This document shows positions 6,483-63,603 of a stretch of 64,000 nt of DNA, piece by piece (positions within the stretch are counted from its first letter, which is position 1; each line of letters starts with the position of its first letter). This stretch comes from Moorella sp. E308F (GTDB lineage Bacteria > Bacillota > DSM-521 > Neomoorellales > Neomoorellaceae), in the NCBI RefSeq assembly GCF_006538365.1, contig NZ_BJKN01000003.1:186432-250431 (forward strand), written 5' to 3'. Both the position numbers and the translations under genes were made by a program. The notes below the pieces were generated by a model. That model ran no database searches. It was not told where the DNA came from and saw nothing but the letters and a program-made list of their open reading frames with translations.

Positions 6483-6606
6483 CGGTATTTACCTGGTTGC
6501 TAAAAAGAACCATGGAGTGCAGAAGGAAATAGTTAACTAAGGGCGAATATTTTATTGCAGCACCCTATCTTACCTGGTGCACAGGCAATAGCTGGAAAAC
6601 TGCATA

Positions 6607-6700
6607 CTCACCCCGGGGGTGCCCGTGAGGGCTGAGAGGTGCTAACCGTGCACTAACCCTTGGAACCTGATCTGGGTCATACCAGCGTAGGGAAGTGGGG
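6607..6700 (+). promoter_or_regulatory. TPP riboswitch (THI element)
   Basis: The leader of thiC carries the hallmark segments of the thiamine-pyrophosphate aptamer in order: GGGGTGCC, GGGCTGAGAG, ACCCTTGGAACCTGATCTGG, then ATACCAGCGTAGGGAAGTGG. Spacing fits a normal aptamer. An intrinsic terminator starts 19 bases downstream, which points to transcription termination when TPP is bound. Confidence 0.96.
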
Positions 6701-6718
6701 TCAAAGGTATGTCAAGAT

Positions 6719-10968: not shown

Positions 10969-11251
10969 GCCCCTCATGGCGGTACGCTGCCACCAGCGAG
11001 GGAATGAAAAATGCCTGGCTGGCATTTGTCGGAAGCGAGCGACTTGGCCCGAGTGGCGAAGCGGCCCAGGCGAAGCTGAGGAGCGAGGGCGGGGCCGAGG
11101 ACAGGATGTCCGAGGCCGGATTCTAAAGGCAAGGACGCCGAATAGGCCGGGAACCCCGCCCGAGCCCGAGGCTGAGCCGTAGGCCGCTCCACAAGGGCCA
11201 TGGAGCGAGCGTGACAATGCCAGCCTGCGATAGAGTTATTTCCGGAGGAGG
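10969..11251 (+). repeat. Large structured repeat, copy A (upstream of larB)
   Basis: Fills the whole divergent space between spoIIP and larB. It begins with a hairpin TGGCGG-TACG-CTGCCA followed by CCAGC. It then has a long stem GGCTGGCATTTGTC (11017-11030) pairing with GACAATGCCAGCC (11213-11225), enclosing about 180 bases with GAGCGAGCG near both ends. Inside, GGGCGGGG pairs with CCCCGCCC around GGCCGAGGAC..GTCCGAGGCC. The right end TTATTTCCGGAGGAGG contains the larB ribosome-binding site. Homologous to copies B, C and D; this copy lacks the nested palindrome. Confidence 0.85.
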
Positions 11252-14364: not shown

Positions 14365-14386
14365 GCTTTGATGATAGTATCTGAGA

Positions 14387-14682
14387 CTGGCTTTAGTTTG
14401 GAGCGAGCGAGCTTCTCCGAGCGGCGAATTGGCCTTGGTGAAGCCGAAGAGCGAAGGCGGGGCCGAGGACAGGAGGTCCGAGGCCGGCCTTTGAGGCAAG
14501 GACGCCGAATAGGCCGCCCAGCACTCACAGTAACCAAGTTACAGTAACCAGTTCTTCGGTTTATGCAGTCGCACTACCTTTGGAGGCACCTGAGTTTAGT
14601 GAGTGCTGGGCGCCTTAAGCCTTACGGCTGGAACCGTAGGCCAATCCGCAAGGGCCAGGGAGCGAGCGAAAACAAAGCCAGC
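14387..14682 (+). repeat. Large structured repeat, copy B (carries hemW 5' end)
   Basis: Outer stem CTGGCTTTAGTTT (14387-14399) pairs with AAAACAAAGCCAG (14669-14681). Copies A, C and D have ATT/AAT where B has TTT/AAA, so paired positions change together. GGAGCGAGCG follows the left arm and precedes the right arm. The inner stem AAGGCG/CGCCTT replaces the GC-rich equivalent of copy A. A 96-bp palindromic insert sits in an internal loop. The 5' hairpin and right flank of the other copies are missing. The final part is in frame with, and translated as, the beginning of HemW. Confidence 0.85.
14516..14611 (+). repeat. Small palindromic insert nested in copy B
   Basis: Ends are GCCCAGCACTCAC (14516-14528) and GTGAGTGCTGGGC (14599-14611), a perfect 13-bp inverted repeat around 70 unrelated bases. 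It replaces the loop that reads GGGAACCCC in copy A. The insert contains TGGAGG (14581-14586), and its right arm begins with the GTG codon that is the best start for hemW. Confidence 0.88.
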
Positions 14683-21681: not shown

Positions 21682-22029
21682 GATACCTGTGCCGCTGGCG
21701 CGGCACCAGCAGATGGCTGAAAACAACAAGCTGGCATTTGTCGGGAGCGAGCGAGCTTCTACCGAGTGGTGAAGCGGCCCAGGCGAAGCTGAGGGATGGA
21801 TGATAAGCGGGGCCGAGGACAGCGAGGCCTTCGGCCGGATTCTAAAGGCAAGGATGCCCAATAGGTCGGGAACCCCGCCTTAAGCCCTGGCTGACCCAGC
21901 ACTCAACTCGCAACGGTTTTGTTCGCGAAGAGACACCTATTACAAACGAGTTGAGTGCTGGGCGCTCCACAAGGGCCATGGAGCGAGCGAGACAATGCCA
22001 GCCTGCGATAAAATTATTTTCAGGGTAGA
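21682..22029 (+). repeat. Large structured repeat, copy D (leader of mtaB)
   Basis: 5' hairpin TGCCGC-TGGC-GCGGCA and ACCAGCAG. The outer stem CTGAAAA pairs with TTTTCAG, and GCTGGCATTTGTC (21730-21742) pairs with GACAATGCCAGC (21991-22002). The interior resembles copy A; AAGCGGGG pairs with CCCCGCCTT where copy A has a G-C-only stem. A 68-bp palindromic insert replaces the loop after GGCTGA. The right end ATTATTTTCAGGGTAGA is shared with copy C and ends just before the mtaB ribosome-binding site. Confidence 0.85.
21895..21962 (+). repeat. Small palindromic insert nested in copy D
   Basis: CCCAGCACTCAACTCG and CGAGTTGAGTGCTGGG, a perfect 16-bp inverted repeat around 36 bases. The first 16 bases of each arm are identical to those of the insert in rnpB; the loop sequence is different. 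Confidence 0.9.
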
Positions 22030-58700: not shown

Positions 58701-58795
58701 ATAAACATGGGGATTACCCGTCCTCCTTGACAGATTGCTATAAAGGGTGTTATATTTAAATCCGCTGAAGAAAAGTGGATAAGTGCTTTTGAGTA

Positions 58796-59236
58796 AACCG
58801 GATGGTCGCGGGCGATAAGCGCCTGGCGCGCCTATCGCCTGAGGAAAGTCCGAGCTCCGCAGGGCAGGGTGCTGGATAACGTCCAGTGGAGGCGACTCCA
58901 AGGAAAGTGCCACAGAAACAGACCGCCCAGCACTCAACTCGACAGTTGGACCTCTTTCACTATAAGCGAACCTGATGTTTTAAATTCAGGTTTGTATATA
59001 AAAGTTTTCATCTGTCGAGTTGAGTGCTGGGCAAGGGTGGAAAGGTGAGGTAAGAGCTCACCAGCGGTTAGGCGACTAACCGGCTCGGTAAACCCCACCT
59101 GGAGCAAGACCGAATAGGGGGACAAAAGGGGTGGCCCGCCCCGTCCCCGGGTAAGGTCGCTGGAGGCGCCAGGCAACTGGCGTCCTAGATAGATGACCAT
59201 CCAAGACAGAACTCGGCTTACAGGTTTACTCAAAAG
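58796..59236 (+). ncRNA. rnpB: RNase P RNA (class A) with palindromic insert in the P12 arm
   Basis: P1 is formed by CTTTTGAGTAAACC and GGTTTACTCAAAAG at the two ends. Universal blocks in order are GAGGAAAGTCCGAGCTCC, CAGGGTGCTGGATAAC, GGAAAGTGCCACAGAAA, AAGGTGAGGTAAGAGCTCACC, GTAAACCCCACCTGGAGCAA, GAATAGG, and AGATAGATGACCATC with ACAGAACTCGGCTTA. This is the catalytic RNA that matures tRNA 5' ends. Between GACCGCC and AAGGGTGG, where the P12 arm belongs, lies a 108-base palindrome related to inserts elsewhere in the window. The core is intact, so the RNA is probably functional. Confidence 0.96.
58925..59032 (+). repeat. Palindromic insert forming P12 of RNase P RNA
   Basis: Perfect 21-bp inverted repeat: arms 58925-58945 (GCCCAGCACTCAACTCGACA plus G) and 59012-59032. 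The 66-base loop contains a second hairpin AACCTGA/TCAGGTT. The outer 16 bases of each arm are identical to the insert in copy D at 21895-21962, and the outer 12 to that in copy B. Confidence 0.9.
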
Positions 59237-59255: not shown

Positions 59256-59316
59256 GGTTATCACCTCTTCTTAGGGGTCACATTTTTAGACCCAGGAAGA
59301 GGTGATAATCTTTTTT
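59256..59316 (+). terminator. Terminator after rnpB
   Basis: GGTTATCACCTCTTC and GAAGAGGTGATAATC form a long stem with an inner GGGTC/GACCC, followed by six T residues. Confidence 0.93.
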
Positions 59317-60122: not shown

Positions 60123-63100
60123 GTTCGCAGCCTACCTATGAGGAATTGAAACGGCGGACCAGGAAGCGGACGGCGTCCGCGGCCGATCGTTCGCAGCCTA
60201 CCTATGAGGAATTGAAACAAACTCCCTGTCGGCCTGACCTACCGGAAATTACTTGTTCGCAGCCTACCTATGAGGAATTGAAACAAAGATAAGATTCCTT
60301 CTCTGGCATTTTGCAGTTGGTTCGCAGCCTACCTATGAGGAATTGAAACTCCTGGCCCTGGTCCTGGCGATGGGGGTGGCCCTGATGTTCGCAGCCTACC
60401 TATGAGGAATTGAAACCCGCTACAAAACGGGCCACCCACTGCCGTCCTGAAGGTTCGCAGCCTACCTATGAGGAATTGAAACACAGTATGGAAGAACTAA
60501 TAAGGACGGCAAAAGTGTGTTCGCAGCCTACCTATGAGGAATTGAAACAGGTAATGGCAGCATTATCCGCGCTGCCGGTCAGGGTTCGCAGCCTACCTAT
60601 GAGGAATTGAAACTAGGGTCGCAGGAGAGCAGCTACTGTAGGCGGTATGTGTTCGCAGCCTACCTATGAGGAATTGAAACCTTGATACTCCCACTTGTTG
60701 TAGAATAGAGAACGGGGTTCGCAGCCTACCTATGAGGAATTGAAACCAAGGCGAGGAAGGCACTGACTGGGAACCGAGCAGGCTTGTTCGCAGCCTACCT
60801 ATGAGGAATTGAAACGAGGTTCCTGCTGTGCTGGCAACGCCGTCATCTATAGTTCGCAGCCTACCTATGAGGAATTGAAACATAACATATTACCACAGTT
60901 TTCTCCAAAGAAGTGTGTTCGCAGCCTACCTATGAGGAATTGAAACCTCCTCGCTCATGATAATTACCTCGGTTCTCTCTTCCCCGTTCGCAGCCTACCT
61001 ATGAGGAATTGAAACGTAAGTAAAGTCAAAGACGTATAAGCCATTAGGCAAGTTCGCAGCCTACCTATGAGGAATTGAAACACCGCTGATTTGAGGTTGT
61101 TCCCCGCCTCCTTGAGGTTCGCAGCCTACCTATGAGGAATTGAAACTCGTCCTCCCAGACTACACCGTTGAGGCCGTCCAAGTTCGCAGCCTACCTATGA
61201 GGAATTGAAACAATACTCATTCAAAAGAATACTAACCGCCATCCGATCGTTCGCAGCCTACCTATGAGGAATTGAAACGTGGCCGCCAGTTTATTGCCAA
61301 CCCATACTTGACCCGTTCGCAGCCTACCTATGAGGAATTGAAACCAATAGAGCAGGCTATTCCTTACTGTAAACGTGACGTTCGCAGCCTACCTATGAGG
61401 AATTGAAACCTGTGCCATAGCTGATAACATAGCCTGTTCTTGTTCGTTCGCAGCCTACCTATGAGGAATTGAAACCCATTTTTTCCCAATTTGCCCATTT
61501 TTCATCTTCGGTTCGCAGCCTACCTATGAGGAATTGAAACTATCTTTACAACCGGACCCGGCTTAACGCCGATGCTTGTTCGCAGCCTACCTATGAGGAA
61601 TTGAAACCCGGCGGGAGCAAACAATATAGGCAAGGTAGACGTGAGTTCGCAGCCTACCTATGAGGAATTGAAACACCTATATGCTTCATGCACAATAGTC
61701 GCCCATTTATTTAGTTCGCAGCCTACCTATGAGGAATTGAAACACTTGCTCTCTGCATATCCAGGCCGCGTCACCTCGGGTTCGCAGCCTACCTATGAGG
61801 AATTGAAACGACTCATTTCACCTGTATATTCTTCCTCCATTTCCACGTTCGCAGCCTACCTATGAGGAATTGAAACCGGTATTCGCCTTTAAGGTTATCG
61901 TCCTTTCTACCCGTTCGCAGCCTACCTATGAGGAATTGAAACGGGGCGTAGTGAAAAGAGTATATGCATGGAATATACGTTCGCAGCCTACCTATGAGGA
62001 ATTGAAACGACCGGATGCTCATTCACCTTAATTACGCGTCCCGGCTGTTCGCAGCCTACCTATGAGGAATTGAAACACGAAACCGGAAAAAATAATTTAT
62101 TACCGCATCATGAGTTCGCAGCCTACCTATGAGGAATTGAAACCAGCCTTCATTAGAAAGGAGGACCTGGCAAATATGCGTTCGCAGCCTACCTATGAGG
62201 AATTGAAACACAGTTGGATAATACGGTCTGTCTATTCCTACTACATAGTTCGCAGCCTACCTATGAGGAATTGAAACTCAAGTAAAATGCCTTGACAGGT
62301 TTGGTGCATCAGTAAGTTCGCAGCCTACCTATGAGGAATTGAAACAAATAAGGCCCTTCCTAAATCATCATCCGTTACCTCGTTCGCAGCCTACCTATGA
62401 GGAATTGAAACATATGCGGCTGCGAGAGCATCTTCTTTATTGTATCCTGTTCGCAGCCTACCTATGAGGAATTGAAACAGCGTGTTTTATAAAGTCATAT
62501 TTTGGATTATACCCGTTCGCAGCCTACCTATGAGGAATTGAAACCCTTAATGAATATAGCTTTATCGCTAAGGGCGATGGCGTTCGCAGCCTACCTATGA
62601 GGAATTGAAACTTTTAATTTTAATTTCCGGGCTATCTCTAATCTACGTTCGCAGCCTACCTATGAGGAATTGAAACGGATATTTATAATTTCTTGCACTT
62701 GTAAAACCTCCTTGTTCGCAGCCTACCTATGAGGAATTGAAACACATCATTCATATGGTATGGTATGATATATACAGAATAGTTCGCAGCCTACCTATGA
62801 GGAATTGAAACCATGCGTAGTCGCGCCAGCCGTCCTTGTGGATAAGGGGTTCGCAGCCTACCTATGAGGAATTGAAACAGGATATTTTTCAGGCAATCAG
62901 GAGAGATAATGCCAGGTTCGCAGCCTACCTATGAGGAATTGAAACCAGATAGCCGAATAGAGGCGGTTGCTAAGGCACTCTTATGTTCGCAGCCTACCTA
63001 TGAGGAATTGAAACAGGTTTTCGGCGGCCTCGGGAGTGAGTTTTACTTCTGTTCGCAGCCTACCTATGAGGAATTGAAACCAAAAACCTGCCCGCCAGTT

Positions 63101-63603
63101 TTTTACTGCCATTACTCCGTTCGCAGCCTACCTATGAGGAATTGAAACCTCTCCGCACAACGATTTAAAAGGATCTGCTTCTTTAGTTTGCAGCCTACCT
63201 ATGAGGAATTGAAACGAAGCAGAGAAGGTGCGGCGCATCATATCATCAAACTCGTTCGCAGCCTACCTATGAGGAATTGAAACCTGAGTAGCGACCCGGA
63301 AATATGGAAGAAGGGAATATACGTTCGCAGCCTACCTATGAGGAATTGAAACTCATGGCTTTCCTCCGCTTTCTTGCGTAGCTGTTCTAAGTTCGCAGCC
63401 TACCTATGAGGAATTGAAACTCGTCGTAGGTGGTGGCCAGGCGCTCGACAACCGTTGTTCGCAGCCTACCTATGAGGAATTGAAACACTCCTCACCGCCA
63501 ACAACTATAGTGTTACGATAAAGTTCGCAGCCTACCTATGAGGAATTGAAACCCTCTACAGCAGTATATATCTGCTCGCTGCTATATCTCGTTCGCAGCC
63601 TAC
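60123..63603 (+). CRISPR. CRISPR array: 52 full 30-bp repeats plus a 13-bp terminal stub
   Basis: The repeat begins GTTCGCAGCCTACCTATG and ends AGGAATTGAAAC (30 bases). I count 52 complete copies, the first at 60123 and the last full one at 63523, with spacers of about 35-38 bases. The ATTGAAAC end is the usual 5' handle of type I-B/III crRNAs, so transcription is + and the leader is on the left. One repeat near the far end (63186) has GTTTGCAG. The last repeat is cut after GTTCGCAGCCTAC at 63603. No cas1, cas2, cas3 or effector gene is in the window; the array depends on genes elsewhere. Confidence 0.98.

Follow-up and report, generated by a model that had tools for sequence, protein, structure and literature searches.

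The rnpB repeats of cyanobacteria and the Rickettsia palindromic elements are families of repeats by which RNA genes acquire longer variable arms. MITEs are short and non-coding, with conserved terminal inverted repeats, many copies and unrelated interiors. Desulfotomaculum is among the bacteria with insertions of about 100 bp in helix 6 of 16S rRNA. Such insertions of about 100 bp in the same helix have also been described for Pelosinus UFO1 (Ray et al. 2010, as cited in PMC6107796). According to PMC4990558, the 23S rRNA IVSs with an S23 ORF, for example that of Coxiella, have palindromic ends, occur sporadically and occupy a variable helix within an essential RNA; excision by RNase III is shown there for the Coxiella IVS.

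Here, we analyzed a window of 64,000 nucleotides from the heat-loving Moorella sp. E308F (contig NZ_BJKN01000003.1, positions 186,432 to 250,431 of the forward strand), and all positions below refer to this window unless another locus is named. Its rnpB gene carries a long palindrome in the P12 arm, which, like the 23S rRNA IVS, has palindromic ends, occupies a variable helix within an essential RNA and occurs sporadically. However, the Moorella element is only about 100 nt long, has other ends and contains no ORF, and no match to PF05635 was found in its genome (G000). Within the same phylum, one rnpB (G064) has a PF05635 ORF between inverted repeats in P12. The element is MITE-like in being short and non-coding, with conserved ends, many copies and unrelated interiors, but unlike a MITE it shows no target site duplication, and no autonomous partner was observed among 119 loci. 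In effect, it behaves as a protein-free IVS and is similar to a MITE that leaves no target duplication; the S23 ORF of the former and the duplication of the latter are the features that it lacks. Published helix 6 insertions affect the same helix and are similar in size to arms with GCACTCA ends in seven genera, and in the accessible text of the source they are not tied to a dispersed repeat or to rnpB. The cyanobacterial rnpB repeats and Rickettsia palindromic elements have other sequences and hosts, and the likeness to them is one of general description only. Our literature search, for which most subscription journals were out of reach, found no paper on palindromes in the rnpB P12 of these bacteria, and none in which insertions in helix 6 or P12 were connected with a dispersed repeat.

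On balance, we consider that the P12 arm is probably a short, protein-free and non-autonomous IVS-like mobile palindrome, belonging to a dispersed family marked by GCACTCA...TGAGTGC. This reading is based on the presence of the same ends in intergenic copies, in P12 of ten genera, in helix 6 and in one tRNA-Ser, as well as on the discordance between cassettes and rnpB cores and on apparent scars of insert loss.

The P12 arm of rnpB in Moorella sp. E308F

The rnpB gene for class A RNase P RNA is located at 58790-59236 (+), where positions 1-367 of the RF00010 model were matched with 324.8 bits (gathering score 100) and a large insertion was placed in P12. This full-length covariance-model match assigns the RNA to class A and bears out the earlier note, which had described the class A core as intact. 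It was also the sole match in a search of the genome, which thus has one rnpB copy. The P12 arm is a 108-base palindrome at 58925-59032 (+), recognized by inverted-repeat analysis, predicted folding and comparison with relatives, with the family core in the region 58930-59027 and GCACTCA and TGAGTGC as its ends. That the palindrome is perfect at its ends had also been claimed, and indeed the 5' arm (58925-58945, +) and the 3' arm (59012-59032, +) are perfect complements over 21 bases, with a 24-nt arm pair being 96% complementary. The predicted fold of the segment has -64.3 kcal/mol (z = -11.3, 200 shuffles). Two features of IVSs are therefore found here: an essential RNA gene carries the insertion in one of its variable helices (P12 of single-copy rnpB, and also 16S helix 6), and the termini are complementary and form a long stem (the 21 perfect pairs at this folding energy).

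Downstream of the gene, an inverted repeat forming a hairpin and followed by a T-run (59258-59308, +) is the likely rnpB terminator. A long CRISPR array with Rfam CRISPR-DR2 repeats is located less than 1 kb downstream of rnpB (60123-63552, -), and a TPP riboswitch was observed elsewhere in the window (6605-6710).

Family copies in the window and their host repeat

The sequence CCCAGCACTCAACTCG and its complement in the P12 arms are identical to those of an intergenic palindrome at 21895-21962 (site B), about 37 kb away, which agrees with the reported identity of 16 bases per arm. A second intergenic palindrome at 14517-14610 (site A) has the same 11-bp ends and a different interior. Within the window, four inverted repeats had exact arms of at least 11 bases and a gap of 30-110 bases, and three of them belonged to the GCACTCA family. 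The whole genome contained six palindromes of the form CCCAGCACTCA...TGAGTGCTGGG and none of the same pattern read backwards, and no intergenic copy in it had the interior of the P12 cassette. The proposal that a repeat sits in the rnpB arm thus held for the ends, which are common to the intergenic copies, but not for the interior, and the family core is GCACTCA/TGAGTGC rather than all 16 bases.

Both intergenic palindromes are embedded in copies of a larger dispersed repeat, which is GC-rich, measures about 200-300 bases and is present a dozen or more times in the genome. The copy hosting site B extends over 21730-22002, with its ends near GCTGGCATTTGTC ... GACAATGCCAGC, and the copy hosting site A over 14385-14682 (left end approximate). 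The host repeat gave no match in Rfam up to E = 1 in 401 bases. The intergenic palindromes examined in this genome lie inside the repeat at two different places of it. Because other copies, such as that at 11018-11224 (L019), have no palindrome, the palindrome is separable from its host.

Spread and features of the GCACTCA...TGAGTGC family

A scan of 84,980 species genomes with the pattern CCCAGCACTCAN{45,75}TGAGTGCTGGG gave at least 119 stretches. Those listed came mostly from Desulfofundulus, Desulfovirgula, Moorella, Pelotomaculum, Desulforudis, Ammonifex and other Clostridia; the few in other phyla may partly be due to chance. Two Pyrinomonadaceae MAGs outside Firmicutes (G414 and G415, found via L081 and L119) contained 11 and 9 palindromes with GCACTCA ends, with extra CACTCAAC/GTTGAGTG motifs inside, and their membership of the family is unsure. 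A viral collection contained no exact match to the pattern with a gap of 45-75.

Among the 131 palindromes compared, the 11-bp ends, which correspond to the terminal inverted repeats of MITEs, were constant and the interiors widely different; comparison of relatives reduced the conserved part to the 7-bp end GCACTCA...TGAGTGC around unrelated interiors. The base before the palindrome was a purine in 121 of 130 distinct contexts and the base after it a pyrimidine in 119 of 130. With regard to target site duplication, a 9-bp repeat was present in one of the 130 contexts, and the others had at most 3 bp, as in shuffled pairs. The sole copy with a clear flanking direct repeat (9 bp, CATGAATTG) was from a Peptostreptococcaceae MAG (L086, 4080-4165). 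No transposase-bearing or longer member was found in 119 loci (869 kb), and the ends paired at short range only. We also considered that copies might sit in pre-existing hairpins, as judged from the complementarity of their flanks; there was no general signal over the 130 contexts. Flank positions 7 and 10 deviated (z = 3.9 and 3.0, respectively), which we attribute to common host repeats.

Copy numbers were compared by a pattern with 9-base ends. Fifteen genomes picked for an rnpB or 16S match had 1, 1, 1, 2, 2, 4, 6, 7, 9, 10, 15, 16, 54, 56 and 63 copies, where a value of 1 means no further copy since the genomes had been picked by one copy of the same ends. Twelve of fifteen genomes not picked in this way had none and the other three had 1, 1 and 2, and the reversed control was zero in all 30 genomes. 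In Desulfofundulus G404, a palindrome was found within a second one, close to the base of the latter (G404:C14:6643-6721). The 11-bp end CCCAGCACTCA was repeated in tandem beside a palindrome, as if ends had been added repeatedly, at G405:C3:19559-19670 and in L150, L176, L135, L157 and L182.

P12 cassettes across rnpB genes

When the ends were anchored to the conserved rnpB flank, GCACTCA...TGAGTGC formed P12 in 16 of 398 sampled genomes of the phylum, representing 10 genera, and the reversed control gave none. Cassette interiors were unrelated between genera. Within the genus, the cassette of E308F and that of G006, which we infer to be Moorella mulderi (DSM 14980) from where two adjacent copies lie and how far apart they are, agreed at all 99 positions from one 7-bp end through the other. 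The next pair outwards differed between the two on both sides (A-T vs C-G), and their rnpB cores were 96.8% identical. The genomes nearest to G006 by rnpB core (G010 and G004, 98%) had cassettes only about 64% like that of G006. The cassette thus behaves as a unit between rnpB genes, as shown by this boundary set against the relationships of the cores. Along supported branches of a tree built from the rnpB core together with its 5' flank, in which G006 and G004 filled under half of the kept columns, at least two changes in insert presence were counted; a tree of rnpB only was poorly resolved.

Three genus members lacked the insert (G005, G009 and G011), and their P12 read GCAC-ATTT-GTGC, GCAC-TCTA-GTGC and GCAC-TTCA-GTGC, respectively. 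GCAC was present at the base of P12 in all three, whereas outside the genus it occurred in none of 26 other distinct short P12s. On the latter count, CCCAGCAC was rejected as a native P12 stem. Because no other short P12 shows GCAC, these remnants in three genomes appear to be scars of insert loss, and the insert was therefore likely ancestral or early in the genus. In 17 distinct P12s, the pair just outside the core was G-C in eight, A-T in five, C-G in three and a C/T mismatch in one, and this variation favours a helix that is kept paired in the RNA, at least at its base.

The proposal that rnpB had taken up a repeat is therefore upheld in that the arm belongs to a dispersed family by its ends and moves as a unit; the direction from repeat to rnpB, rather than the reverse, is likely but short of proven.

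Family members in 16S rRNA helix 6 and in a tRNA gene

Helix 6 of 16S rRNA started with GCACTCA in 8 of 388 genomes from seven genera (reversed control, none). Both helix 6 arms were present on an unbroken contig in L223, L224, L226, L227, L230, L232, L233 and L234. A whole-16S search for the family gave 0 of 12 genomes, apparently for technical reasons, and the 16S start pattern matched 7 of the same 12. In Pelotomaculum, the 5' arm of helix 6 was of the GCACTCA family; in Desulfofundulus, the helix 6 arms resembled by eye those of a second family instead (see below). In G100 and G134, GCACTCA ends were present in 16S helix 6 and not in rnpB.

In a Spirochaetales MAG (L095, about 306-450), the variable arm of tRNA-Ser(CGA) was a palindrome of 67 nt that had the 11-bp ends of the family (22 of 22 end bases), and the tRNA was called by ARAGORN once this arm had been shortened. 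ARAGORN on joined flanks printed nothing even for L095, so a blank result in that run is no evidence. The tRNA-Ser case stands alone, since this genome has one copy only.

Alternative explanations

The ends might not mark a mobile element at all. The 7-bp end could be a motif at the RNA level, such as a site for a nuclease or another protein where extended arms begin, which selection produced repeatedly, with the rnpB and 16S arms being convergent. It would fit this idea that the ends alone are common around unrelated interiors, that they stay at the arm base in several RNAs, and that near-variant ends (GCACTTA, GCACTAA and GTACTCA) occur in P12 with matching partners. However, the same ends are carried by dozens of intergenic copies per genome, with the bias for a purine on the left and a pyrimidine on the right, and are also found in nested copies. 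In addition, 12 long P12s among at least 30 listed rnpBs of 400 nt or more end otherwise, showing that a long P12 can do without the motif, and the cassette boundary between E308F and G006 is exact. We therefore regard a reselected RNA motif as unlikely.

The repeats could also derive from rnpB, if an enlarged P12 arm had been copied out and then spread. The earlier note had taken sister species with the same P12 but without the repeat family as a sign of this origin, and such species were found in part: the rnpB copy was the sole strict-pattern match in G008 and G012, and G013, with a P12 arm of the type CCCG..., had no strict match in its genome. Moreover, a single copy was present in 3 of 10 rnpB-positive genomes outside the genus (G288, G394 and G062), and the listed positions suggest that this copy is rnpB itself. 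These findings are countered by the helix 6 members in G100 and G134, where rnpB is without the ends, and by the 26 distinct short P12s of other genera, none of which has a GCAC stem. Furthermore, up to 76 copies were present in one Desulfofundulus record that was retrieved through intergenic matches, and the copies examined carry no rnpB sequence beyond the P12 tip. An origin in rnpB is thus rather improbable. Vertical inheritance of a P12 arm from the ancestor of the phylum, with loss in most lineages, is very unlikely: loss could account for the patchy presence in 10 genera and for the three uninserted genus members, but all 26 distinct short P12s of other genera lack a GCAC remnant, the interiors are unrelated and the same ends occur at other loci.

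Possible mechanism and cellular consequences

The preferred reading of a mobile hairpin has points against it as well. First, the P12 interiors are not copies of the intergenic ones, and the ends alone agree. Second, there is no target duplication (the 9-bp case in one of 130 contexts) and no transposase-bearing version in 119 loci. Finally, some genomes with a P12 cassette have no other strict copy, and the scars come from three genomes.

If mobile, the copies would settle at the tips of hairpins, where structured RNA tolerates a longer arm, and movement would take place at the DNA level with an enzyme encoded elsewhere. Because target duplication is lacking, insertion would probably proceed via a single-stranded or hairpin form of the DNA, and the interiors would drift quickly while the ends stay. 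An insert may be tolerated at these sites because P12, 16S helix 6 and the variable arm of a tRNA all lie at the periphery of their RNAs. In the cell, the insert most likely forms a lengthened P12 of the mature RNase P RNA, judging from the sequence; by analogy with 23S rRNA IVSs, nicking of the long P12 stem by RNase III, or its removal, is possible. Since rnpB is single-copy here, whichever RNA form results must work. Movement without target duplication becomes a testable question in culturable Moorella species.

Long rnpB genes and a second repeat family

A search of 199 genomes listed at least 30 rnpBs of 400 nt or more. Among these, nine had exact GCACTCA ends, five had near-variants, ten belonged to a second family, two had other long P12s, and four were long elsewhere or unparsed. 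Twenty long rnpBs were fetched, of which three (L278, L280 and L281) were unparsed and one (L266) was long elsewhere than in P12. Eight of the ten second-family P12s were flagged by a regular expression and two (L272 and L277) by eye.

This second family has purine-rich arms like GGAGGTCAGAAGTC. Arms of the GAGGTGAGAGGTTAGAAGTGAG or GGAGGTCAGAAGTC type were found in L211, L212, L215, L264, L270, L273 and L274, where they occupy helix 6 of 16S rRNA if the genome is of the Desulfofundulus type and P12 of rnpB in the others. In one case (G064, L279 299-655, -; G064:C1:403522-404396), the P12 insert was 453 nt long and contained a complete ORF of 118 aa, which matched PF05635 (23S_rRNA_IVP, S23) at 3.1e-33 and also TIGR02436. 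The ORF lies between purine-rich inverted repeats of the second family and thus represents an IVS with a protein gene inside RNase P RNA.

Tentatively, and with less confidence than for the Moorella arm itself, we suggest that mobile DNA hairpins with GCACTCA...TGAGTGC ends form an undescribed class that targets hairpin tips and has repeatedly colonised P12 of RNase P RNA, 16S helix 6 and a tRNA-Ser arm across thermophilic Firmicutes. Together with the S23-linked second family, this would add rnpB to the genes that bear IVSs, and in some of these bacteria RNase P may work with an RNA that is nicked or greatly lengthened. Known IVSs are those of rRNA; if this view is true, elements of this sort also occur in the ribozyme of RNase P, where they belong to two repeat families and are found in several lineages. 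This would explain why P12 and 16S helix 6 vary so oddly in length among these bacteria, and variable arms of essential RNAs would be common landing sites for small mobile hairpins, a role in which these vital RNAs appear here.

The IVP/S23 protein was also considered as a partner of the GCACTCA family and rejected, as any PF05635 match was present in only 8 of 25 genomes, and GCACTCA or its complement occurred within 400 bp of a PF05635 match in 0 of 13 loci. The latter result indicates that the two families are different; both use P12. In G114 (L284), PF05635 genes inside 23S rRNA were flanked by the same kind of arms as those of the second family.
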